Source of the DNA: an uncultured Bacillota bacterium
GTDB taxonomy: Bacteria > Bacillota_I > Bacilli_A > Izemoplasmatales > Hujiaoplasmataceae
Direction of reading: 5' to 3'
DNA length: 63,738 nucleotides
Assembly: GCA_937862575.1 (NCBI GenBank)
Contig: CALMFM010000155.1
Location: 1 to 63,738 of the forward strand
Shown: positions 25,643-39,895 of the stretch, piece by piece
Numbering within the stretch: position 1 is the stretch's first letter
How the letters are laid out: each line of letters begins with the position of its first letter
Program-made: the position numbers and the translations under genes
Notes under the pieces: generated by a model
Databases searched by the model: none
What the model was told of the DNA's origin: nothing
What the model saw: the letters and a program-made list of their open reading frames with translations, nothing else

Positions 25643-27460
25643 TTAATTTTTCAAAATTTTAAATTCATATCCTTCGATTTCTAATTGTAAATTTAGTTGT
25701 AAATCATGATTTTCAAAGAGATCAACAACGTTCTTGCCAATCAAGTTATCTGGTAAATCAATAGTCTTTGAATCTTCATTGTTATTAAGAAAGAAGTAAA
25801 TTGAACCCTTATTATATATTAAAACATTCTGGGAGTTTTCCAACCAATTTAGTTCAACTTGTTTGAACTCGGTGTTTTCTTTTCGTAACTTTATCATATT
25901 TTTGAAAAAATTATACATCGATAAATCTTGCCTATGATCCCAAATCATTGGCTGTCGAGGGTCTTTATCCTCTAATTGAGACAATCCAACCTCATCGCCA
26001 TAGTATAATGCTGGAGAACCGCCAAAACTAAGCAAAAAAGTATAAGCTAGTTTAACTAGATTAGGATTATTACTGCACTTTTGAAGAATTCGCGAAGTAT
26101 CATGTGAACCAATCATATTAAACATATTCACTGCTATGTTTTCTGGATAAGATACAAGCAGTTTATTGATTTTATAAATAAAAGAATAAATTGAAATATT
26201 TAGCATAGATTTGTCTCTGCCAAAATATTGCCAAATTGGATATGCGACCTCATAGTTCATTACAGCATCAAACTGGTCGCCTCTCAGCCACGGCGTAGAG
26301 TCGTCCCAATTCTCTCCCAAAATATAAAAATCGTGTTTTATATTTCTTACTGCTTCCTTAAATTTTCTCCAAAAACGATGGCTTACTTCGTTAGATACAT
26401 CTAGTCTCCAACCATCAATATCATATTCTTTTATCCAATATGTCGCGACATCGAGAAGGTATTCTTCTGCGATAGGATTATCTGTATTCCATTTGGGCAT
26501 CATCGGAGTGAATGCGAACGTTCTATAGTTTGGTTTAATGTTCAAATGCTTATAAATTGGGTAACCTTTTTCATCTAGTTTGAAGTTAATGAAGTTGTCA
26601 TCCTCTATGAAAAAGCAATCCCAATACATTGAATCCCTTTTGTTTTTAACAACATCTTGAAAATATGGATGGTCAAATCCACAATGATTAAATACCGCAT
26701 CCAACATTACTTTGATATTATTCTTGTGGCATTCCTTAATCATAACACCCAAGTCTTCTTTTGATCCAAAAGATGGATCAATTTCATAATAATCTGATAT
26801 ATCATATTTGTGTGAAGATACTGACTTAAAAATAGGAGTAAAGTATATCCCGGTAATTCCAAGTTCTTTTAAGTATGGAATTCTTTTGGTAATACCTTTA
26901 ATTGTGCCTCCAAAAAAATAATCATTTAGATCAGTGGCTTTGAAATATTCTTGTTCTTTTAAATAAAAATTATCATCATCTCTACTAAATCGATCTGGAA
27001 ATATCTGATACCAGACGATGTCTTTGGCCCATGAAGGAGAATCAATAAGATCGCCTTCATTAATGTAAGGATAATTAAAATATCCAAACAGGTTAGATAC
27101 ATATGAATTTTTGTTTTCTGTTGTCAATTTTACTAAGTCTCTACATCCATAGAAATAATCTTCAAAGCCGTCATTTATGATGAAGCTATATTTACTACGG
27201 GTTGTTATTGTTTTTATGGATATAAAATAATAATCAAATAACTCAGTAGTATATTTGAGCTTCATCTCGTTATTAGTCAATGAATCACCACTCCAAACAT
27301 ATTTTCCGTCTTTGAAATGCCATTCGAAAGGATCGCCAAGTAGTAATTTTACTGACTTGACATCATTTTTAGCCGTTTGTAAAATGATATGCATGGTGTT
27401 TGCGTCAAACGCATACGCCATATGACTTTTAGGGATGTGATTGATTGCTTCTAGTTTCAT
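25643..27460 (-). CDS. Cytoplasmic GH13 alpha-glycosidase (neopullulanase/maltogenic amylase type)
   Basis: No signal peptide; DIVWYQIFPDRFSRDD, LDAVFNHCG, DGWRLDVSNEV, ILGENW, MIGSHDTSRI. Confidence 0.9.
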   Translation of the reverse strand: MKLEAINHIPKSHMAYAFDANTMHIILQTAKNDVKSVKLLLGDPFEWHFKDGKYVWSGDSLTNNEMKLKYTTELFDYYFISIKTITTRSKYSFIINDGFEDYFYGCRDLVKLTTENKNSYVSNLFGYFNYPYINEGDLIDSPSWAKDIVWYQIFPDRFSRDDDNFYLKEQEYFKATDLNDYFFGGTIKGITKRIPYLKELGITGIYFTPIFKSVSSHKYDISDYYEIDPSFGSKEDLGVMIKECHKNNIKVMLDAVFNHCGFDHPYFQDVVKNKRDSMYWDCFFIEDDNFINFKLDEKGYPIYKHLNIKPNYRTFAFTPMMPKWNTDNPIAEEYLLDVATYWIKEYDIDGWRLDVSNEVSHRFWRKFKEAVRNIKHDFYILGENWDDSTPWLRGDQFDAVMNYEVAYPIWQYFGRDKSMLNISIYSFIYKINKLLVSYPENIAVNMFNMIGSHDTSRILQKCSNNPNLVKLAYTFLLSFGGSPALYYGDEVGLSQLEDKDPRQPMIWDHRQDLSMYNFFKNMIKLRKENTEFKQVELNWLENSQNVLIYNKGSIYFFLNNNEDSKTIDLPDNLIGKNVVDLFENHDLQLNLQLEIEGYEFKILKN

Positions 27461-27611: not shown

Positions 27612-28106
27612 ATGCATAATTTTGAACGAAGAGTCAGAAGTTTCTCGATTGATCTGTCTTTGGCGACGCTAGTATTTTTTCTTTTTGTTATGTTGTTAAA
27701 TAGTCTTGAGTGGGGAACTGATTCAATAAAATTACTTATTGCGGCTACGATTGCCTATTTTGGAGCGCTGATTGTGCCTAATTTTTTCAGCAAGGGACAA
27801 TCATTTGGTAAGAGAAATCAAAAAATGATGGTTGTTGATGTGGTTACCAATAAACCACCCAAAATGATTGTTGTTATAGCCCGTGAAATATTCAAAGGAA
27901 TGCTTCTTATTTGGACTTATGGGGCGTATATGGTTGTTTGTGGCATAATGGTCAATGCTAGAAAAGACGGGAGAGTCGTTCATGATCTAGTTTTTAAAAC
28001 AAAAGTCATATGCCTGACAACATATGTGACAGATAAGGAACAAGGCAATGTGTTAGGTACCACCGAAACAATGAAAAAACATTTGGAGGGATCGGGAAAT
28101 GAGTAA
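27612..28106 (+). CDS. RDD family membrane protein
   Basis: MHNFERRVRSFSIDLSLATLVFFLF... several TM segments, GQSFGKRNQKMMVVD typical of RDD proteins. Confidence 0.75.
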   Translation: MHNFERRVRSFSIDLSLATLVFFLFVMLLNSLEWGTDSIKLLIAATIAYFGALIVPNFFSKGQSFGKRNQKMMVVDVVTNKPPKMIVVIAREIFKGMLLIWTYGAYMVVCGIMVNARKDGRVVHDLVFKTKVICLTTYVTDKEQGNVLGTTETMKKHLEGSGNE

Positions 28107-29694
28107 AAAAACGTTTGTTCTATTGATATTTTTGCTGCTTGTATTTGGAGTAGTATCTTGTGCGAGTGAAGAAAAGGTTTTTGAAGAAGCCTATCCTGAA
28201 AACGATACTTATTATGAATTATTGGTTCGTAGTTTTGCGGACAGCGACGGAGATGGGATTGGAGACTTCAACGGAATCACTGCCAATTTGGACTATTTTG
28301 TTGACTTGGGTATAACGGCTTTATGGTTGATGCCAATACATCCATCGCCATCATATCACGGTTACGATGTGATGGATTATTATGATGTTAACCCGGATTA
28401 TGGAACGATGGAAGATTTTGATAATTTAGTTAGTTCGGCGAATGAAAAAGGGATAAAAATAATGTTGGACATGGTTTTCAACCATACTTCAAATGAGCAT
28501 CCTTGGTTTCAAGAGGCTTTAACAGGAGACGAAACTTCCATGTCTTATTATGAGTTTATTGAGAATACCATCGACACACAGAGCAAGCTCGGGTCATGGA
28601 ACCAAACCATTTGGCATACTACGAGTGTAGGAAAATATTGTGGATATTTCTCTTATACTATGCCTGATTTGAATCTTAGCAACCCGGTAGTGTTTGATGA
28701 AATTGTAAATATAAGTGAGTTTTGGATAGATAAGGGTGTAATGGGATTTAGATTGGACGCCGCATTACATTTCTTTGGAGAGAACGAAATAATAGGCGAA
28801 ACGACATCTTATTTAGACAATATCATTTGGCTAAAAGATTACATTAAGGCAATTGATGAATACAAGTCGGGAATATATGTGACAGCCGAAGTGTATGAAG
28901 AAATGTTATATCAAGTAGTCGGGGATTTCTTTGGAGCCGTTGACTCTCCTCTTGATTTCCCGGTTGCGGCTTTAATTAGAGGCGCTTCTCAAAATTATAC
29001 AAACAGAAGATACGCTACGGTTTTGGAAGATATGTATGATTATTATAGAAGGATTGACAAAAACTTCATTTCGGCTCCGTTCATTGTAAATCATGATATG
29101 AACAGATTTGCAACACAAGTGCTCGGAGACGAAGATATGCTTAGGTTAAGTGCCGAAATGTTATTGACTTTGCCTGGAAATCCAATAATTTATTATGGAG
29201 AAGAACTTGGCATGTTTGGTTATAAAGCTTCGGGGCCTGATATTTGGGACGAAACAAGAAGGTTGCCTTTCCTTTGGAATAACGATTATCAGACAGATTG
29301 GGTTGTTTCAAGCAATCAAGCTTTGATAGCTTTGAATGCACAAAATGCAGATGTGGATTCTGTTTCTGATCAGATGGCTGATCCAAATTCGCTTTGGTCG
29401 ATATATGAAGTTTTATTGAGATTAAGAAACGAAAATATTGCATTGAAATACGGAAACAGTTTTGTAAGATGGGATGCATCTACAGATTCTCTTCAAGGGT
29501 TTTATAGAGAAATTACTTATGATAAATACCATCAAAAACTTTTGATACTTCACAACTTCAGTCAAGACGATGTTGATATGATTGAATTCAACGGACAAAT
29601 TATTTATGCCAGCAACACCGCAATCGAAGACCTTTCCGGGTTGACCATCATACCAGGTAGGTCAACAGTTATTATTGAAATATACGGAGACTGA
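28099..29694 (+). CDS. Lipoprotein alpha-amylase (GH13)
   Basis: Lipobox GVVSCAS; YYELLVRSFADSDGDGIGDFNGI, LDMVFNHTS, GFRLDAALHF, VTAEVYEE, FIVNHDMNR. Confidence 0.92.
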   Translation: MSKKTFVLLIFLLLVFGVVSCASEEKVFEEAYPENDTYYELLVRSFADSDGDGIGDFNGITANLDYFVDLGITALWLMPIHPSPSYHGYDVMDYYDVNPDYGTMEDFDNLVSSANEKGIKIMLDMVFNHTSNEHPWFQEALTGDETSMSYYEFIENTIDTQSKLGSWNQTIWHTTSVGKYCGYFSYTMPDLNLSNPVVFDEIVNISEFWIDKGVMGFRLDAALHFFGENEIIGETTSYLDNIIWLKDYIKAIDEYKSGIYVTAEVYEEMLYQVVGDFFGAVDSPLDFPVAALIRGASQNYTNRRYATVLEDMYDYYRRIDKNFISAPFIVNHDMNRFATQVLGDEDMLRLSAEMLLTLPGNPIIYYGEELGMFGYKASGPDIWDETRRLPFLWNNDYQTDWVVSSNQALIALNAQNADVDSVSDQMADPNSLWSIYEVLLRLRNENIALKYGNSFVRWDASTDSLQGFYREITYDKYHQKLLILHNFSQDDVDMIEFNGQIIYASNTAIEDLSGLTIIPGRSTVIIEIYGD

Positions 29695-29698
29695 TTAA

Positions 29699-30541
29699 AT
29701 GCTTAAATTCTTTGTGGATAGCCTCCGTGTCAAGAGAATCTATAATCTTAAAGATGCAAAATGGTCTTCAGTGATATTTTATTTTCTACTATTAGTATTG
29801 ATAATCAGTTTTCCTTTGAATTTACAAATCATAAGATCTGGAGGGTGGGATTTATATGACTTCACCGCCGGAATCAGGCAACAGTACCCAGATTGGTTAC
29901 CAGATGAGTTGCCTGAAGATATAGAGATTTCTTATACTGGGATGTATTATGAAAACACTGATAATTCGGTATTTACGACGACAAATTTGGATGGCGATAA
30001 TCTTTACATAGTATTTTCTCCGTTGGCGGATTATGTTCCTAATGACAGAACACTGGTTTTTGAGGAAAATCAAATCAGTTATTATGACGAAAACGGAACA
30101 TATATGTTTTCAGCTGATTATTCTAGAGTTTCGGGAATTGTCAGGTTCTATGATTTGAAGTTGGGAACACAATCCAATGCGGTAGATAAATTCGCTTCAA
30201 TTATTGAAAATTCATTTAGCGGCTACGCTCAGTTCAAATCGATAATTCTTAACATTGTTATAAATTTAGTGATGAATATTTTGTTGGTTCTTGTGGTATC
30301 GTTCCTGTTTATTTTCATAAGAATTAAATTCCAAAAAGTTACTACTTTCTCAGATAACATCAAGATAGTCATATCTTCTATGACGCTACCAGCTTTGGTT
30401 GGTATGGCATTTGGATTCATAGGCGTAATGGAACTTAGCGCGTTCACGGTGGTCATATTTCAGTTCATGACGCCTATCATTGCGTATGTTGCAATTTATC
30501 AGGGGTCAAAAGGCAAACCGATATCCGGTAAATATTTATAA
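29699..30541 (+). CDS. DUF1189-like membrane protein (YvdJ-like, maltodextrin-locus associated)
   Basis: N-terminal FFVDSLRVKRIYNLKDAKWSSVIFYFLLLVLIISFP and C-terminal TM cluster; genomic context resembles the B. subtilis mdx/yvd locus. Confidence 0.6.
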   Translation: MLKFFVDSLRVKRIYNLKDAKWSSVIFYFLLLVLIISFPLNLQIIRSGGWDLYDFTAGIRQQYPDWLPDELPEDIEISYTGMYYENTDNSVFTTTNLDGDNLYIVFSPLADYVPNDRTLVFEENQISYYDENGTYMFSADYSRVSGIVRFYDLKLGTQSNAVDKFASIIENSFSGYAQFKSIILNIVINLVMNILLVLVVSFLFIFIRIKFQKVTTFSDNIKIVISSMTLPALVGMAFGFIGVMELSAFTVVIFQFMTPIIAYVAIYQGSKGKPISGKYL

Positions 30542-30589: not shown

Positions 30590-33415
30590 TTAGAATTTTC
30601 TTCTATATACGAAGAAGCCGACTAAGGCTAACATTCCAAAGAATATTGTTGAATATGTTAATGAATCACAAGAGCCACAACCAGTAGGTGTATCATCAAC
30701 GGGATTTACTACTACACCTTGATAAAACACTAGTGTTTCGTTTTCCAAAGCTATGAAATCCGAACCGTCTACGTATGTTTTGATGACTTCGTTAGATATT
30801 CCAGATGAATTACCAACTAAATTCCACTCACCTTCAGGTAAAGGATATTTGGCAAAATCATCTGTGTTATGAATGACTAGGATTGTGTCGAATGAATCGC
30901 CGTTTGCATAACTTGAAATAGTATAAGCAATTACTGAATCATCTTCATAATCAATGAAGTCGATCGCTGCTAAAACTTCATCTGCCGTGGTCATTCTAAA
31001 TGCAGGGTGTCCAAGTCGGAATGCAATCATTTCTTTATAATATTGATAAACTTCATAGTTTGTTTCTTGAACCATCAAATCCCATCTCAATTGGTTGGTT
31101 GAATCAGGAGATTGATAAGAATTTGAATCAAAACCACCGGATACTGCCGGTTTGGATCTCATAAATTCGGCACCGGCATGGATGAATGGAATACCTTGAG
31201 ACAAAAGCACAATTGCATTAGCTTGTTTTATCATATCTGGGATGAACTCTCTTTGAGCGGTGCTTGTAGATAATTTGATTTTGTCATAAAGAGTATTATT
31301 ATCATGTGCGGATACATAGTTGATGACTTGTGTAGGATTATTTCCCCAGAACATATTGTAAGACAAGTAACTGTCATCAATGCCAGGAAATTCAGTTCCG
31401 CCGACGATACCGTATTTGATTTTGTTAATAATTGAAGCGTTGACGTCCCATTGAACGAATCCGCCTTCGGATGCGTTGAATACAGACCCTTTAACTCCGT
31501 CTCTTATTTCATCGTTGAAAGCCGCAACACCAGGCATATCTTCGAGATTAACTTTGTTAGCTGTAAGAGTTGAAGATAGCGGAGATGTACCGCCTGTCCA
31601 AGGCTCTCCATAAACCAAAATTGTTGGATCAATTTCATGTAAAGCGGCTACAATCATGTTCATTGTGTCAACATCATGTAATGCCATAAGATCGAATCTG
31701 AATCCGGAGATATTGTATTCTGATGCCCAGAATGTAACTGAGTCGACCATGAATTTTTGCATCATTGCTCTTTCAGAAGCTGTTTCATTTCCGGTTCCAG
31801 AACCATTACTGAAAGAACCATCTGCGTTCATTCTGTAATAATATCCAGGAAGGATAAGGCTGAAATTAGAATCGGCACTTTGTCCCGTGTGATTATAAAC
31901 AACATCCATGACTATTCTCAAGTCATTTTCTGTGAAAGTCGTTACTACTTGTTTAAATTCATTGATTCTGACTGAGCCATCATATGGATTGGTTGAATAA
32001 TATCCTTCCAAAACGTTGAAGTTAAGAGGCATATATCCCCAGTTGAATTGAGAACTTGATCCGGATTCATCTACTGCGTTTCCATAATCAAAGAATGGCA
32101 ACAATTGAACGTGGGTAACTCCCATATCGATGATGTGGTCTAACCCGGTGGCTATACCACTATAAGTAGTTCCTCTTACAGTTAGTCCAAGGAATTTTCC
32201 CCTATAGGATTCATATTCTTGGTCGACTACCCAACTGTTATGAGTGGTCAAGTCGCGGACGTGCAATTCGTAGATAACTGAATCGGTATAATTTTCAATA
32301 GTATCTGGTCTTACTCCGTATTCAAAACCATCAGGATTTGTTTGTGAGAAGTCAACAATCATACCTCTGATTCCGTTAATTCCAGAACTCTTGGCATAAG
32401 GATCTATCACTTCATTGGTACTAATTCCGTTTGTAACTGTGTATGTATAATAATTCCCATGAAGATTTTCATCTACAGTTGCGGTCCAAGTACCTTTAAG
32501 GCTTTTTGTCATCTCAATGCTTTGTGTAGGTGTGTCTGTAGCGGTAGAATCTTTGGCAATCAAATATTCTGGAGTTCCGGAATCGTAGATATTTAAAATG
32601 ACGCTGCTTGCAATAGGAGCCCATAGTTTAAATTCTGTAGAATTTCCATCAACAACAGCTCCTAAATCATCACCTTCATAGAAATAAGCATCTTCAAATT
32701 GAGTAGTATCATATATTCCGTCAAAAGTAACAATATAATCTTTGATTAACCCAGAGAAATCAACCTCTAAAACATATGTTTTTGTCAAATCCACATTACT
32801 GGTCAATCTCATAGTTCCCGAATTGTAAGACAACGTGATTGACTGAGGAGCGGTAATGATGTCGTTGACTTTAAGTGTAATATCACTTTGTTCAACTATT
32901 GAAGTTAAAGTAAATTTGATTGTTTGAACGTCAGTGAAATAAGCGTTGATAACCTTGTCAGATTTATCTGGACCATCAGGATCGTCGATTGAATAACCGA
33001 TTCTTTCGTCACCTTGAACAAAATATACATGTAATTCGCCGTTTTCAACTGCGGTTGGAACAATTATGTATCGATCTTTGTCGATGTCTTTGGCTGCCCA
33101 TTCATTCAATCTTACAATGACACCAATTTGACTTACCTCAGTCATTCCGTTAGCAACCATATCGATGGTAGCGACGGCGCCCCAACTATCGGTTACAATA
33201 GTTCCGCCATCTTCGTCAAAGCCATATCCGGCGCCATTACCACCTTGCGGCCATAACCATAAATTCCACCCATCGTCATAGTCGTTATTATATCTGAAGT
33301 AATGCACAATCAACGTATCTGGGGCTGTTTCCAGCGCTTCAACGTTGTCCATGCTTATAATAGTAAATATTGCAAATGCACTAAATGTTATAAATAACAA
33401 TATTTTTTTAAGCAT
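30590..33415 (-). CDS. pulA: Secreted type I pullulanase (CBM41 + CBM48-like + GH13) with C-terminal TGCG-TM-RRK anchor
   Basis: Signal peptide; CBM41 LIVHYFRYNNDYDDGWNLWLWP; FNWGYMPLNFNVLEGYYSTNP; SGFRFDLMALHD; LVYGEPW; SAHDNNTL; tail PTGCGSCDSLTYSTIFFGMLALVGFFVYRRKF. Confidence 0.92.
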   Translation of the reverse strand: MLKKILLFITFSAFAIFTIISMDNVEALETAPDTLIVHYFRYNNDYDDGWNLWLWPQGGNGAGYGFDEDGGTIVTDSWGAVATIDMVANGMTEVSQIGVIVRLNEWAAKDIDKDRYIIVPTAVENGELHVYFVQGDERIGYSIDDPDGPDKSDKVINAYFTDVQTIKFTLTSIVEQSDITLKVNDIITAPQSITLSYNSGTMRLTSNVDLTKTYVLEVDFSGLIKDYIVTFDGIYDTTQFEDAYFYEGDDLGAVVDGNSTEFKLWAPIASSVILNIYDSGTPEYLIAKDSTATDTPTQSIEMTKSLKGTWTATVDENLHGNYYTYTVTNGISTNEVIDPYAKSSGINGIRGMIVDFSQTNPDGFEYGVRPDTIENYTDSVIYELHVRDLTTHNSWVVDQEYESYRGKFLGLTVRGTTYSGIATGLDHIIDMGVTHVQLLPFFDYGNAVDESGSSSQFNWGYMPLNFNVLEGYYSTNPYDGSVRINEFKQVVTTFTENDLRIVMDVVYNHTGQSADSNFSLILPGYYYRMNADGSFSNGSGTGNETASERAMMQKFMVDSVTFWASEYNISGFRFDLMALHDVDTMNMIVAALHEIDPTILVYGEPWTGGTSPLSSTLTANKVNLEDMPGVAAFNDEIRDGVKGSVFNASEGGFVQWDVNASIINKIKYGIVGGTEFPGIDDSYLSYNMFWGNNPTQVINYVSAHDNNTLYDKIKLSTSTAQREFIPDMIKQANAIVLLSQGIPFIHAGAEFMRSKPAVSGGFDSNSYQSPDSTNQLRWDLMVQETNYEVYQYYKEMIAFRLGHPAFRMTTADEVLAAIDFIDYEDDSVIAYTISSYANGDSFDTILVIHNTDDFAKYPLPEGEWNLVGNSSGISNEVIKTYVDGSDFIALENETLVFYQGVVVNPVDDTPTGCGSCDSLTYSTIFFGMLALVGFFVYRRKF

Positions 33416-33492: not shown

Positions 33493-33506
33493 TGTAACCG
33501 ATTACT
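33493..33506. promoter_or_regulatory. Candidate LacI-family/CcpA (cre-like) operator 1
   Basis: TGTAACCGATTACT, dyad GTAA-CCGA-TTAC, close to the TGNAANCGNTNNCA consensus. Confidence 0.45.
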
Positions 33507-33519
33507 TTTTAATTAAAAA

Positions 33520-33533
33520 CTAAAGCGCTTGCA
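33520..33533. promoter_or_regulatory. Candidate LacI-family/CcpA (cre-like) operator 2
   Basis: CTAAAGCGCTTGCA with palindromic AAGCGCTT core. Confidence 0.45.
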
Positions 33534-33630
33534 TAAATAAGTTTCAAGTAGTAAAATAAAGTTACAATACTGTTTTTATGTTAAAGATAGTATAAAAACT
33601 TTATATATATAATAAAATTAGGAGGAAAAA

Positions 33631-36033
33631 ATGAAGAAAAAATTGTTTTTACTGTTTTTTTCTGCACTAGCTTTGCTAGGGTTCGTCTCGGTTTCGGTTG
33701 TTAACGAAGTCAAGGCCGCAGCTGCTGGCGAAGTCGTATTCCACTACCAAAAATGGTATGAAGATTATGATACTGCAGGCCTTTGGGTCTGGGGCACTGG
33801 CACAGACGGAACAGCTAATGGCGTTGAAAAAGCCGGCATCGACGATTTTGGAGCTTACTTCAACATCGCAATCGGTTCAGACGCAACATCCATGGGTGTG
33901 ATTCCTATTGCTCAGTCAATTGCGACTGATGACAGATGGAATAACAAAGACAGTTATGAAGGAATGGATCTTACGCTTGACGTAACAGCGGCAGCCGCTG
34001 GCGGAACAATGGACGTATACTTCTTTAGCGGAAGCGATACTATATTTGTAGCCGATCCAAACTATATCAACTTGTTTGTTGTTTACTTCACTGCAACAGA
34101 AGAATACGAGACAAACCTTGGTATTCATGCATGGGGTACTGACTGGTACACAGACGAAGCTTACGGCGATTGGAGTATTTGGGGAACCCCAACTACAATC
34201 TTCTCTGCTAACTTCACTACACCAGAAGGCAAACTTGGTAAACTTGGTATGGTTCAAGCCACAGGTTCAGATGCAAACTTCTTAGTTTACGCCGGTAATG
34301 ACGCAACTAAGAAAACTGGCGACGTAGCCGGTTTGTTGACAGACTTCTCTCTTGGCGATGTTACAGCAGTTTATATCGCTGGTGATGTTTACAAGGGTCT
34401 GGACAAAGTTGGTTTGTTCGCAGATTCATCATTTGCTTTCAAATTTGTTCCATTTGACAATACTGACAATGTATTGAGTGGAACATATGCTTCTAAACCA
34501 AATACAATTTTGGTTAAATTCTCTGCAGACGTTCCAGTTGCTTTCTATGACGAAACTCAAGAACCAGAACAAATCGAATATCAAGAATATGAGATCGTAG
34601 GTTATGAGTGGGTACTGAAAGAGAATCCAGTTGTACAAGACGATACAGTATATGATGCTTATGTCGCAACAGCAATTCCTGCTGGTATGGCGAGATTGGT
34701 CATTCACTATCAAAAATGGGATGGAGACTATTCTGACGTAGGTTTCTGGACTTGGGGAACTGGTACTGGCGGAGCTTCTGCTCCAGTATTGAAATCAGGC
34801 GTTGATGATTTCGGTGCCGTATTCGAACTAGATCTAGGTTTGGATGCAACTAGCGTAGGATTGATTCCTATTGCTGACAGCATCAATACAGATGATCGTT
34901 GGGGATACAAAGACTCATTCGGCGGAGCTGACATGGGTTATGATGTTACCGGAATTACAGACGGGCAACAAATCGACATTTACTTCTTCAGTGGTGGTGC
35001 CGTATTCTATACAGCAGATCCAACTAAAGCTAACGTGATCGTAATTAACATGAACACAGCTGGCGAATACGAGGAAAACCTTGGTGTTCACTGCTGGGGT
35101 TGGGATCAAGCTCCTGCTTGGGGAACTCCATATCCAATGACTCATGCTTTGACATCTCCGGATGGCGTACAAGGGCGTGGTGTTCTATTAACAGCTGACG
35201 CTGCTAATCTTGGTAGTGCTGGATTGCTGGTTTATGCTGGCGATGACGCAACTAAGAAAACTGGCGACATCAGCGGCAGCATCTTTGGTGCAGCTTCTGC
35301 TGGCGATGTATTCGTAGTTTACACTACTGTTGATGCAGACGGACATGATTACACTTTGGATAGAGTTACTTTCGTAGATCAATTGATGACTTATGAAAAA
35401 GGCGACCCAATTTGGGATTATGTGACATACTATGAAGATTCATATCCTCGCGTTGAAATCGACTTGACACCATTCTTTAGTTTATGGGATGGCGATACAG
35501 AATTAACAGACGCTATCGAAGAGTTGAACTACAACGTAGAAGATGATGCAATTACAGAATTAGTAGTTGTTTTGGCCGACGGACAAGAACTTGAAGCCGG
35601 ACACGAATATGTTTTGAAATATAACAATGGAGAAGAAGATCCATTGAAAGAACAAGTAGCTGAAATAGCAGTTGCTATCGATGAAGAAGCTCCAGTAATC
35701 ACATTCATCAGCGATCAAGAAGTAACAATCACCGCTGGCGAAGGCTGGGATTCTGAATTGTGGCCAGTTATGAGAGCTGAAGATGATCGTGATGGAAACG
35801 TTACTGACCGCATCTATGTAAAAACTGGTGACGGCACAGTAGATATGAATGAAGTTGGCGTTCACGAAGTAATTCTTACAGTATTTGACAACTGGGGCAA
35901 TGAATCAACCGCTACATTCACAATTAACGTTATAGCACCTGAGACTGGCTGCGGCGCTGCAAGCGCAAGTATTGCCGGAATCGGTCTGTTTGGAATCATT
36001 CTCTTCTTTGTAAAAAGAAAAGAATGGATTTAA
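33631..36033 (+). CDS. Surface alpha-glucan-binding protein: two CBM41-containing repeats, Ig/HYR-like C-terminal domain, TGCG-TM-KRK anchor; no catalytic domain
   Basis: Signal peptide; EVVFHYQKWYEDYDTAGLWVWGTG and RLVIHYQKWDGDYSDVGFWTWGTG repeats; tail ETGCGAASASIAGIGLFGIILFFVKRKEWI. Confidence 0.82.
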   Translation: MKKKLFLLFFSALALLGFVSVSVVNEVKAAAAGEVVFHYQKWYEDYDTAGLWVWGTGTDGTANGVEKAGIDDFGAYFNIAIGSDATSMGVIPIAQSIATDDRWNNKDSYEGMDLTLDVTAAAAGGTMDVYFFSGSDTIFVADPNYINLFVVYFTATEEYETNLGIHAWGTDWYTDEAYGDWSIWGTPTTIFSANFTTPEGKLGKLGMVQATGSDANFLVYAGNDATKKTGDVAGLLTDFSLGDVTAVYIAGDVYKGLDKVGLFADSSFAFKFVPFDNTDNVLSGTYASKPNTILVKFSADVPVAFYDETQEPEQIEYQEYEIVGYEWVLKENPVVQDDTVYDAYVATAIPAGMARLVIHYQKWDGDYSDVGFWTWGTGTGGASAPVLKSGVDDFGAVFELDLGLDATSVGLIPIADSINTDDRWGYKDSFGGADMGYDVTGITDGQQIDIYFFSGGAVFYTADPTKANVIVINMNTAGEYEENLGVHCWGWDQAPAWGTPYPMTHALTSPDGVQGRGVLLTADAANLGSAGLLVYAGDDATKKTGDISGSIFGAASAGDVFVVYTTVDADGHDYTLDRVTFVDQLMTYEKGDPIWDYVTYYEDSYPRVEIDLTPFFSLWDGDTELTDAIEELNYNVEDDAITELVVVLADGQELEAGHEYVLKYNNGEEDPLKEQVAEIAVAIDEEAPVITFISDQEVTITAGEGWDSELWPVMRAEDDRDGNVTDRIYVKTGDGTVDMNEVGVHEVILTVFDNWGNESTATFTINVIAPETGCGAASASIAGIGLFGIILFFVKRKEWI
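33730..34450 (+). repeat. Intragenic repeat unit 1 (CBM41 + 'NLGIHAWGTDW' module)
   Basis: Shares with unit 2 HYQKW.(E/G)DY, I(D)DFGA, ATS.G.IPIA.SI.TDDRW..KDS, DATKKTGD; boundaries approximate. Confidence 0.75.
34693..35380 (+). repeat. Intragenic repeat unit 2 (CBM41 + 'NLGVHCWGWDQ' module)
   Basis: Same conserved blocks as unit 1; boundaries approximate. Confidence 0.75.
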
Positions 36034-36055
36034 TGGGTGAAAGGAGAATATGATT

Positions 36056-37354
36056 ATGAAAAAGTTATTAACTATACTAATATCAGTGTTCGCACTTTTC
36101 GCTTTAGTTAGTTGTACAGAAGAATTGCAACCAGATATCGTTGACTTCAGTTTAAGTCAAGAAAAAGTCACAACAATAACCGTTTGGATGGATGACACTG
36201 ATGGTGTCTTCATGGATCAATTGATTCCGGCATTCAACGCTGTTTATCCGAATATCGAAGTTAACTTCCAACACATGGGAGCTTTGGATTCACGTGACAG
36301 ACTCAAAACATACGGTCTATCTGGAAATGGTGCAGACGTGTTTATGTTCCCACATGACCACTTGTCATTAGCCATTCTTGAGGATTTGGTATACGAGTTA
36401 CCTAACGACCTTTATGAAGAATTGAATGATACGATTCTTGATGTCGCAATGGATATTGCCACAGCAGGATCAAGAGGATCAGCAAACCCTACATTGTATG
36501 CCGTTCCATTATCAATCGAATCAATCTTTATTATGTATAACAAAGACCTTATTTCTGACGAAGAAGTAGCCGCTTTGGAAACATGGCAAGATGTTATTGA
36601 ATATTCAGCCACATTCGCTACTGAAAATCCTGGAAAACAATTATTGACTACCAATTCACATTGGGCAGACAACTATTATCTAGAAGCTTTCTATTCAGCA
36701 TTTGGTTGGAGACCTCATGGAACAGATGGTACTGATGGTACTTTGGTTGGGTTCGAGAGCACAAACCTTACAAATGCTTTGGAATGGATTTATAACGATC
36801 TGAAACCGATAGTAACCGGTAACGACTCTTATAACTCTGTTGGTACATCAGCATTTGAACAAGGTCAAGCTGCGATGATTATTACTGGACCTTGGTCAAT
36901 CACAACTTTCGAAGGCAAATTAGATAATCTTGGAGCAACAACTCTTCCTGGCTTTGCCGAAGATACTCCTGGAGTTGTCGACGAAGTAAGAACATTTGCA
37001 GGATCACAGATGGTTGCAGTTTACAAATATTCACCGAATAAAGAAGCAGCAATCAGCTTTGTATCATTCTTGGCAACAGAAGAAGCTCAACAACTTCTTT
37101 ACACAACTTCAAATGACTGTCCAGCTCTGAAAGACCTGAGCAATATCGAAGGAATTTCAACTGACGTTTACATGCAAGTTATGTTGCAACAATTACAAAC
37201 TTCAATTCCAATGCCTACCATCGCTGAAGTCACATATTACTGGGCTGCAGCACAAACAATGGTAGTCAACATTTGGGATAGTGCCGCTGACATTGTTACA
37301 GAACAAAAGAAAGCCGAAGCATCATTCCTTGCTTCAAAAGCATTGGCCCAATAA
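36056..37354 (+). CDS. Maltodextrin-type ABC transporter substrate-binding lipoprotein
   Basis: Lipobox FALVSCTE; family 1 extracellular solute-binding protein pattern (TITVWMDDTDG..., GQAAMIITGPWSITTFE, FAGSQMVAVYKYSPNKEAAISFVSFLATEEAQ). Confidence 0.9.
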   Translation: MKKLLTILISVFALFALVSCTEELQPDIVDFSLSQEKVTTITVWMDDTDGVFMDQLIPAFNAVYPNIEVNFQHMGALDSRDRLKTYGLSGNGADVFMFPHDHLSLAILEDLVYELPNDLYEELNDTILDVAMDIATAGSRGSANPTLYAVPLSIESIFIMYNKDLISDEEVAALETWQDVIEYSATFATENPGKQLLTTNSHWADNYYLEAFYSAFGWRPHGTDGTDGTLVGFESTNLTNALEWIYNDLKPIVTGNDSYNSVGTSAFEQGQAAMIITGPWSITTFEGKLDNLGATTLPGFAEDTPGVVDEVRTFAGSQMVAVYKYSPNKEAAISFVSFLATEEAQQLLYTTSNDCPALKDLSNIEGISTDVYMQVMLQQLQTSIPMPTIAEVTYYWAAAQTMVVNIWDSAADIVTEQKKAEASFLASKALAQ

Positions 37355-37375: not shown

Positions 37376-37404
37376 GGCCTTCCGTAACAAGAAGGCCTTC
37401 TTTT
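37376..37404 (+). terminator. Hairpin/partial terminator between binding protein and permease genes
   Basis: GGCCTTC-cgtaacaa-GAAGGCC followed by TTCTTTTC. Confidence 0.65.
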
Positions 37405-37438: not shown

Positions 37439-39895
37439 ATGAAAAATAACGGAAAACACATATTAAAATCGATAGTCTCGGCTATTATTCCCGGATTGGG
37501 ACAGATTTTTAACAAACAATTCATTAAAGCAGCGTCTTTCTTTTTATTGTTTGCTATTTTCGTTGGTATTGAACTCTCCACCAGCCATTATTTCGTTACT
37601 GTAGATCCTTACGATAAATTAACTACTGAAACCGGCGAACTTTTCACTGACGATTTCTCGAGAAATTTCTATAACAACTATCTATACCAGCAATCTCGAG
37701 GGGAAGTAGATTTTCCTGACTTTGAAGTCTATCATGATGAAGTTAGTGCCGATGGCGTATTCTCTATGCATGAATTGCTTGATTACGTAGCTGAACAAAT
37801 TGTAGGCTCTTCGACTTCAAGATATTTTGTGCTATCGACCGATTTGGTAGTTGAAGGTACAGGGTTAAGCACATCAAATACAGGGGTGCTTAAAGATACC
37901 GATTTAATAATCGGAACCGATGACGCCGAAATTGAAACATTTGATTTCACTGATGTTAAGATTGGAATCACAATCTATATGAGCAATGATGTCGAATACT
38001 ACAGAGTTATAGCTGGGTCTGACGAGACTAGAGAAGTCTATTATGTTAATGTTAATGATAAGACAGACATCATCACTGATGTTGCCGGGTTTACCGAATA
38101 CAAGCGAGGCGATTCTTTGTATTATGATTCAACATTAGGAATCGTATTCATCAAATCGACCATCAGCGATTCTGTATTAGGCTCTTCTGATTATCGCTAT
38201 ACTAACATTCTTGACAGTTCGGATTATTATGATGCGACTGATTCCAATAATTTTACATATTTCAGTTCTTTGAAGAGATTGGATATCAAAGGAGATTTAG
38301 TATTCAGTTCAACAGGAGAATTATATGTAAGATATATACCTGAATTATCATACGAAATGGTGCATGGGTACAATGGAACAGAATTTACTGATTATTTCAG
38401 AAATTATGTAACCATGAGATACAATGCCAACACCAGTTTTGATTCCGGCAATTATAACAGAATGTTAATTGAGGTATATTTCTCAATCCATCCTGAATTA
38501 AGAACCGCATTCGAAACAGAGTTTTACAATTTCTTCTACGATAAAGCCGGGGCCTTTACGAGAGGCATCTGGTCACTAATTACACTTGGAACTACCGATA
38601 AAGTGGTTTACAATTATAAGAGTCTTCATGATCCGTTAAAGTCCGTGTCTTTCACCGAAGACAATATCACTTATGCGGCGGTATCAGGAATTCTTGATGA
38701 ATCCCCGCTTATCGGACATGTTTCATCATACTTGTTGATTCAAGGTTTGATTTATACATTGTTGCTGGCATATTTTATTCTAATTTATATTTGGAATATC
38801 ATTGATGCCTACAAAACAAGTAAAAATTATGCTTTGACTCAAAAGCATGTTACTGATAAAGAATGGTTCCACAACATCTTTACTCATGGATTTGAGTATT
38901 TCATGATGTTACCGGCACTATTCGTAATTACTTTCATTACAGTTATGCCAATTCTGTTCGGATTCCTGATCGCATTTACCAGTTATAGTGGGTTTGACTC
39001 CGATTCAGGCTTGTTTACTTGGGTTGGATTTTCCAACTTCACGAGAATATTCAGCTTCGGTGAAGGAATTCCATTTGCCGAAACCTTCTGGAGTGTATTG
39101 AGTTGGACAGTGATTTGGGCTATTTGTTCAACCGCCACCGTATTCTTCGGAGGTATGTTCTTGGCTGTCGTCATCAATTCGGAAAGAGTGCCTTTCAAGA
39201 AGTTCTGGAGAACTTTCCTGATTCTTCCTTGGGCAGTACCGGCATTGATTTCACAAATGGCTTTCTCGGTGATATTTAGCGATCGAGGGGTTATTAATTC
39301 CATCTTCAGCAAATTAGGGTTATATGAAGTCTTCCAAAACTGGGGGATTCTCGGACGAGCCTATGATGAAGCTTCAATGACGATTTTTCAAAAGTTGTTC
39401 TATCTTGGTTATAACAACATTCAATGGTTCTCGAACGCCAATAATATTTGGTTTGTTCGTATAGCTTTGATTATAATCAACATTTGGTTAGGGGCTCCAT
39501 ATTTCATGGCATTGATGACCTCAATCATGACCTCAATCGACCGTACTCTATATGAAGCGGCCGATATTGATGGAGCAACCAAGCAACAAAAATTCAAGTT
39601 TATCACCTTCCCGTTGGTAATGTATTCAACTGCACCAATTCTTGTTATGACCTTCTCAGGTAACTTTAATAACTTTGGTGTTATTTACTTCATTACCCAA
39701 GGAGGTACCGGTGCCGGAGACATTGATACGGCGTTCGCCGGTAGCACTGACATTCTGATTTCGTGGATGTATACCTTGACCGTAAGTAAACGGGTATATA
39801 ACATGGCTTCAGTGTTCTCAATCTTGATATTCCTTCTTGTCGGATCTATTGCTGCATGGAACTTCTCGCAGACAAGAGCGTTTAAGGAGGACTGA
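37439..39895 (+). CDS. Maltodextrin ABC transporter permease (MalF/MdxF family) with large insertion after TM1
   Basis: N-terminal IPGLGQIFNKQ TM; C-terminal permease with EAADIDGATKQQKFKFITFPLV EAA loop; ~385 aa between first and second TM regions. Confidence 0.88.
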   Translation: MKNNGKHILKSIVSAIIPGLGQIFNKQFIKAASFFLLFAIFVGIELSTSHYFVTVDPYDKLTTETGELFTDDFSRNFYNNYLYQQSRGEVDFPDFEVYHDEVSADGVFSMHELLDYVAEQIVGSSTSRYFVLSTDLVVEGTGLSTSNTGVLKDTDLIIGTDDAEIETFDFTDVKIGITIYMSNDVEYYRVIAGSDETREVYYVNVNDKTDIITDVAGFTEYKRGDSLYYDSTLGIVFIKSTISDSVLGSSDYRYTNILDSSDYYDATDSNNFTYFSSLKRLDIKGDLVFSSTGELYVRYIPELSYEMVHGYNGTEFTDYFRNYVTMRYNANTSFDSGNYNRMLIEVYFSIHPELRTAFETEFYNFFYDKAGAFTRGIWSLITLGTTDKVVYNYKSLHDPLKSVSFTEDNITYAAVSGILDESPLIGHVSSYLLIQGLIYTLLLAYFILIYIWNIIDAYKTSKNYALTQKHVTDKEWFHNIFTHGFEYFMMLPALFVITFITVMPILFGFLIAFTSYSGFDSDSGLFTWVGFSNFTRIFSFGEGIPFAETFWSVLSWTVIWAICSTATVFFGGMFLAVVINSERVPFKKFWRTFLILPWAVPALISQMAFSVIFSDRGVINSIFSKLGLYEVFQNWGILGRAYDEASMTIFQKLFYLGYNNIQWFSNANNIWFVRIALIIINIWLGAPYFMALMTSIMTSIDRTLYEAADIDGATKQQKFKFITFPLVMYSTAPILVMTFSGNFNNFGVIYFITQGGTGAGDIDTAFAGSTDILISWMYTLTVSKRVYNMASVFSILIFLLVGSIAAWNFSQTRAFKED

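Follow-up and report, generated by a model that had tools for sequence, protein, structure and literature searches.

Introduction

The best-known non-catalytic proteins that keep starch at the cell surface belong to the Bacteroides outer membrane and to the amylosome of Ruminococcus bromii. In Bacteroides thetaiotaomicron, SusE and SusF are non-catalytic outer-membrane lipoproteins that bind starch at multiple surface sites and are encoded together with an importer, which is TonB-dependent. For the R. bromii protein RBR_09240, gene context implies no function (PMC9112005). Izemoplasma is wall-less, and environmental Tenericutes carry the pullulanase PulA (PMC7301438). A description of stand-alone CBM41 proteins of the kind reported here was not found in the open-access papers searched for Mollicutes-type bacteria.

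We analyzed a 63,738-nucleotide stretch of DNA (the window; contig CALMFM010000155.1 of assembly GCA_937862575.1) from an uncultured Bacillota bacterium of the order Izemoplasmatales, family Hujiaoplasmataceae. It encodes a protein, hereafter the array, that is in our judgment quite likely to be a surface alpha-glucan tether feeding a pullulanase and a maltodextrin ABC importer.

Domain organization of the array protein

An 800-aa open reading frame with a signal peptide, two CBM41 repeats, an Ig-like segment and a C-terminal transmembrane (TM) segment had originally been predicted at this site, and Pfam, phmmer and hydropathy analyses bore this out. The features are as follows.

33631..36033, + strand: array ORF, 800 aa, non-catalytic CBM41-array surface protein
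33631..33723, + strand: signal peptide (about aa 1-31), from sequence and hydropathy; no lipobox seen
33733..34047, + strand: CBM41 module 1 (aa 35-139), by Pfam PF03714 and a match of its AlphaFold model to 2j71
34060..34455, + strand: X1, putative diverged CBM41-type module, the first "WG" module (aa 144-275), by a profile chain via relatives and the strand order of the model, at moderate confidence
34456..34686, + strand: linker or small beta segment between units (aa 276-352), by alignment; no Pfam match
34693..35007, + strand: CBM41 module 2 (aa 355-459), by a second PF03714 stretch and phmmer to 2j71
35014..35394, + strand: X2, putative diverged CBM41-type module, the second "WG" module (aa 462-588), by hhalign to X1 and the profile chain
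35428..35688, + strand: Y domain (aa 600-686), beta-type, shared with one-unit relatives (hhalign Yb-sY 88%)
35698..35931, + strand: Ig-like stalk domain, Bact_surface_Ig/HYR-like (aa 690-767), by Pfam PF16403
35941..36030, + strand: ETGC motif, TM segment and RK-rich cytoplasmic tail (aa 771-800), by hydropathy and sequence

Hydropathy placed the N-terminal signal segment at aa 3-27 and a single C-terminal TM segment at aa 773-796, followed by RK residues. Each unit consists of a CBM41 module, a module X with the motif NLG(I/V)H-x-WG and a linker, and an extra beta-type domain of ~90 aa (Y) lies between the "WG" modules and the Ig domain. The PF16403 match to the latter (E 6.9e-6, 26.5 bits) fell just under the cutoff of 27. 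We also considered the linker and Y domain as parts of a pullulanase N-terminal region, which was unsupported (Yb-PulY 0.4% by hhalign).

The original prediction also held that GH13 catalytic motifs are absent, and this was confirmed: neither Pfam nor NCBIfam gave a glycoside hydrolase match in the array protein, and none of four GH13 regular expressions matched it (0/4). Two of these, CSR1 and CSR2, do find the neighboring pullulanase; the remaining two are negative for both proteins. No hidden catalytic domain emerged from the Pfam, NCBIfam and motif searches tried.

The canonical modules have a CBM41 fold and aromatic pair

Both the profile comparison of the repeats and the structure prediction that had been proposed as checks upheld the CBM41 relation. 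PF03714 (PUD/CBM41) matched the array protein in two stretches with a whole-protein E value of 4.5e-27. Among solved structures, the Thermotoga PulA CBM41 2j71 matched aa 355-415 by phmmer (E 3.4e-5), and a small profile of the array repeats also retrieved 2wan and streptococcal pullulanases. The AlphaFold model of module 1 has the CBM41 fold, aligning with 2j71 at Z 12.4 (2.9 A over 97 residues) and with 2j43 at Z 12.2 (about 100 residues); it also resembles the SpuA CBM41s, and unrelated structures scored Z 7-8 against it. Module 2 was assigned to CBM41 by sequence only, the model of aa 353-772 (mean pLDDT 38.6) being excluded from use. Taken together, these data leave little doubt that modules 1 and 2 are CBM41 modules.

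The W-x-W pair, whose residues we take to be those that touch the glucan in the 2j71 group, is present in 19 of the 20 canonical modules of the window's family, including both copies in the window. This is consistent with canonical modules that would bind alpha-glucan.

The "WG" modules are linked to CBM41 through relatives

The "WG" modules (X1 and X2) had been proposed as a separate undescribed fold. We dropped this reading because relatives from the class gave a profile chain to CBM41 with clean controls. X1 and X2 matched each other at 99.4% by hhalign, and the first direct comparison of X with CBM41 gave 0.9%. The chain runs through intermediates from other families of the class: the window-family X modules (fX) matched the second modules of one-unit relatives (shortX) at 95.6% in profile comparison, and these second modules in turn matched the pullulanase CBM41 at 98.5% and a pooled CBM41 set at 99.4%. 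When the X set was pooled as well, its comparison with pooled CBM41 gave 84.8%; the controls stayed low, at 0.2% for reversed sequences and 0.04-0.2% for the Ig and Y domains.

Pfam gave no direct match to the X modules of the window protein. Its PUD profile directly matched the second module of one relative (L090), and another relative, built of two units like the window protein (L092), has four PUD stretches. In the AlphaFold model of unit 1, X shares both the strand order and the short helix of CBM41, with block pLDDT values of about 47-73 as against 73-94 for the CBM41 module. Foldseek rows to tandem CBM41s cover about 245 columns of this model, and the structure-comparison (VIA) rows cover almost only residues 1-111. 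From the profile chain it is likely that the X modules are diverged CBM41-type modules, and the array protein would then probably comprise four such modules, of which two are canonical and the other two diverged. X has His in place of the first Trp of W-x-W in 19 of 20 copies, with the second Trp kept; because of this replacement, the X modules may be weak binders or mere spacers.

The array gene is conserved next to a maltodextrin importer

We then placed the array in its gene neighborhood. The gene order in the window is GH13 (-), RDD protein, GH13, DUF1189, pullulanase (-), array, MalE, MalF, MalG and Lgt, with the following neighbors and elements.

25643..27460, - strand: GH13 with an alpha-amylase N-terminal domain (neopullulanase/cyclomaltodextrinase type)
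28099..29694, + strand: GH13 enzyme
29699..30541, + strand: DUF1189 membrane protein, a conserved neighbor at the array locus
30590..33415, - strand: type I pullulanase with CBM41, CBM48 and a C-terminal GC-TM tail, divergent from the array
36050..37354, + strand: MalE-like solute-binding lipoprotein (SBP_bac_1)
37376..37397, + strand: terminator-like hairpin between malE and malF
37439..39895, + strand: MalF-like permease, 818 aa
39898..41211, + strand: MalG-like permease

The length of the MalF-like permease is unusual; its N terminus matches DUF5683, and a large insert precedes the permease domain. MalF-like permeases of relatives range from about 490 to 880 aa. Sister genera (L038, L040-L044) have an additional GH13 gene downstream of malG, close to lgt and the SDR gene; the window lacks this GH13 gene.

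Nine further genomes of the order encode full-length array orthologues with 53-68% identity, so the protein is not a chance reading frame. Several genomes of the family had no array match, including one of the same genus with 97% completeness (G002). A profile of the one-unit form found the array family in further families of the class, and in a 392-genome sample of the phylum, matches at E 1e-14 came from 13 genomes, each of them in this class, though distant relatives may exist outside it. Neighborhoods were covered for 39 loci, 36 of them with enough sequence for an adjacency test. A search for array orthologues beside maltodextrin-importer genes had been proposed as a check, and such genes do adjoin it: malE follows directly on the same strand in 33 of the 36 loci, spanning seven family groups, with gaps of 5-24 bp in many of them. 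Of the three exceptions, one (L101) is a short contig end, and the other two (L087 and L091) are genes located elsewhere in f10 genomes. A divergent pullulanase gene lies upstream within 1.5 kb of the array in 20/36 loci.

These positions bear on whether the array could instead be an adhesin or biofilm protein that attaches to host or environmental glycogen-like polymers and does not serve feeding. Adhesins commonly combine an Ig stalk with a C-terminal TM segment, the streptococcal SpuA group that the array model matches has tandem CBM41s, and the paralogues L087 and L091 lie outside mal operons. However, the array directly precedes malE-malF-malG in the 33/36 loci and its operators are often common to the pullulanase, and we regard an adhesin as improbable compared with a tether that feeds the importer. 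The two paralogues (L087 7783-9093 and L091 7975-9630) are themselves CBM41 arrays with TM tails, encoded in large f10 genomes.

Relatives of the array have gained modules

Among independent relatives, one (L054) carries a CBM26 module (Pfam, E 1.4e-15), and two others have stretches below cutoff that are CBM20-like (L103, E 0.005) and X25-like (L102, E 0.003). The CBM26 and the weakly matched CBM20- and X25-type modules point to starch as the target. In a tree of the units, the second units of all ten window-family proteins formed one clade with 0.99 support, and the first-unit clade was weak (0.57); the tree thus indicates that the unit duplication is older than the radiation of the window's family.

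Homology of the array CBM41 modules to those of the neighboring pullulanase (hhalign) would also be expected if the array were a decayed pullulanase that no longer has its GH13 domain or any function. To this we give practically no credence, because the open frame is conserved across the class, modules were duplicated and extra starch-binding modules gained; retention of W-x-W in 19/20 canonical modules of the window's family also speaks against decay and for a functional tether.

The array operon and the pullulanase share a promoter region

The divergent promoter region between array and pullulanase is 215 bp long and contains two operator-like elements.

33493..33505, no strand assigned: operator-like palindrome TGTAACCGATTAC in the divergent promoter
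33523..33557, + strand: second operator-like box AAGCGCTTGCAT on the -35, together with the TTGCAT-17-TAAAAT promoter of the array-malEFG operon (33529-33557)

The palindrome TGTAACCGATTAC is identical in the window and in 8/8 of the f1 orthologues that have the promoter region. A near-invariant GCTTGCAT box overlies the -35 in the shared promoter of the window's family; the -35 box has the form (A)CGCTTGCAT, and the version in the window is GCGCTTGCAT. Palindrome and -35 box appear to resemble LacI-type operators, and we infer that a LacI-type repressor would regulate the array operon. The 5' leader of array-malEFG could fold into a hairpin, perhaps an mRNA stabilizer, in the window (33566-33593) and in the orthologues L037-L042; its sequence varies among relatives and its pairing is conserved, and it is strong in L038 and L041 and weak in the window.

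The hairpin between malE and malF would keep array and MalE levels above those of MalFG. The same hairpin could equalize the levels of array and MalE, which would suit a role mainly as an accessory of the ABC importer, in which the array docks MalE or MalFG and passes on long maltodextrins, with tethering secondary. The strict adjacency of malE, with its gaps of 5-24 bp in many loci, fits such a role as well. Against it, no interaction surface is known, CBM41s in known cases bind polymer and act with pullulanase, and the f12 forms described below are, by prediction, secreted and unanchored. We therefore consider a mainly accessory role rather unlikely and favor polymer tethering as the primary function.

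Cell surface and anchoring

Of the 90 genomes of the order, 89 gave no match to the penicillin-binding transpeptidase profile PF00905, in a search that matched 10 of 14 control genomes, and sortase was found in none of the 90. This lack of penicillin-binding transpeptidases (89/90) and sortases (90/90) suggests that the array would be exposed on a single wall-less membrane. The sole transpeptidase-positive genome has a full PF00905 match (G013:C40:12172-13092, E 7.2e-69), which is either contamination or a real remnant.

The C-terminal TM segment is absent in nine f12-type loci (L096-L101, L103 and L105, which are f12, plus L102), where the proteins end right after the Ig domain; these forms may be released or held by partners. 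The proposal of a membrane-anchored surface device for starch capture thus stands as regards the domains, the malEFG adjacency, the shared operators, the gained modules and the lack of transpeptidase and sortase, but not as regards an anchor common to all members.

Unrelated proteins of this sortase-free order share a (P/A)-x-TGC motif that immediately precedes a C-terminal TM segment and an RK tail. Its carriers are the array (35941-36030), the pullulanase (30593-30709, - strand), a GHL10 hydrolase and a coil protein; the sites outside the window are at L122 (G000:C38:5534-5629) and L129 (G000:C175:896-997). This tail may be a Cys-type signal at the C terminus, for sorting or modification, that has so far gone undescribed. 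At L003/L129 (G000:C175), a TGC-tailed protein is encoded directly upstream of another ABC solute-binding lipoprotein, which itself has an Ig-like stalk domain, and the arrangement of surface protein plus solute-binding protein may be repeated there for another substrate.

A model for alpha-glucan capture

Our model builds on the domains, the absent catalytic domain, the operon order, the shared promoter region, the class-wide conservation and the order's lack of transpeptidases and sortase. To these it would add export, anchoring, alpha-glucan binding, capture beside pullulanase and MalE, and LacI-type regulation. The signal peptide would direct export of the array, a single C-terminal TM helix would hold it on the wall-less single-membrane cell, and the Ig and Y domains would form its stalk. 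Two canonical and two diverged CBM41 modules would display repeated alpha-glucan sites, so that starch, glycogen or pullulan could be held by avidity. The co-regulated and likewise TM-tailed pullulanase would cut the held polymer, and the MalE lipoprotein, next in the operon, would catch maltodextrins for MalFG. A tentative and somewhat doubtful extension is that array tether, anchored pullulanase and MalE form a physical surface complex that captures, cuts and imports alpha-glucan, with the X modules as a second binding mode.

Comparison with known systems

By profile and fold, the array belongs to the same module family as the SpuA/PulA tandem (2j43, 2j44, 2ya1) and Thermotoga PulA (2j71), and the SpuA/PulA tandem CBM41s are used for alpha-glucan polymers, as we propose for the array. 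However, the SpuA/PulA modules sit within a GH13 pullulanase, whereas those of the array stand alone, with diverged copies, a stalk, a TM anchor of their own and an importer operon. The neighboring type I pullulanase (30590-33415) shares CBM41, secretion and the GC-TM-RK tail with the array but carries a GH13 catalytic domain and CBM48.

Other parallels are with starch-binding proteins built from different parts. Sas20/RBR_09240 of R. bromii, also from a Gram-positive lineage, is non-catalytic and binds starch at the surface with several domains, as we propose for the array; its modules are different, however, and a dockerin anchors Sas20 in the amylosome (PMC9112005). Cgt of Actinoplanes is a secreted starch-binding protein without an enzyme part and, in contrast to the array, has a single CBM20 module (PMC7275007).

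With respect to SusE/SusF, the array differs in its single membrane, its ABC importer, its SPase I-type signal without a lipobox and its C-terminal TM segment, and phmmer gave no SusE/F row among solved structures at E up to 1. The suggestion of a single-membrane SusE/SusF analogue holds in that the array is encoded with an alpha-glucan importer, of ABC type (33/36); by its signal and TM segment the array is not an outer-membrane lipoprotein. The array would be like SusE/F or Sas20 in role and, by the tests made, appears unrelated to SusE/F. The array family is conserved throughout a wall-less, largely uncultured bacterial class and linked to a maltodextrin ABC importer. Genes that Pfam would label only "pullulanase-associated domain" thereby acquire a testable function, and a polymer-holding route is suggested for cells without a wall or outer membrane. 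If array, pullulanase and MalE do form the surface complex considered above, this wall-less class would possess a counterpart of the Sus system on a single membrane.
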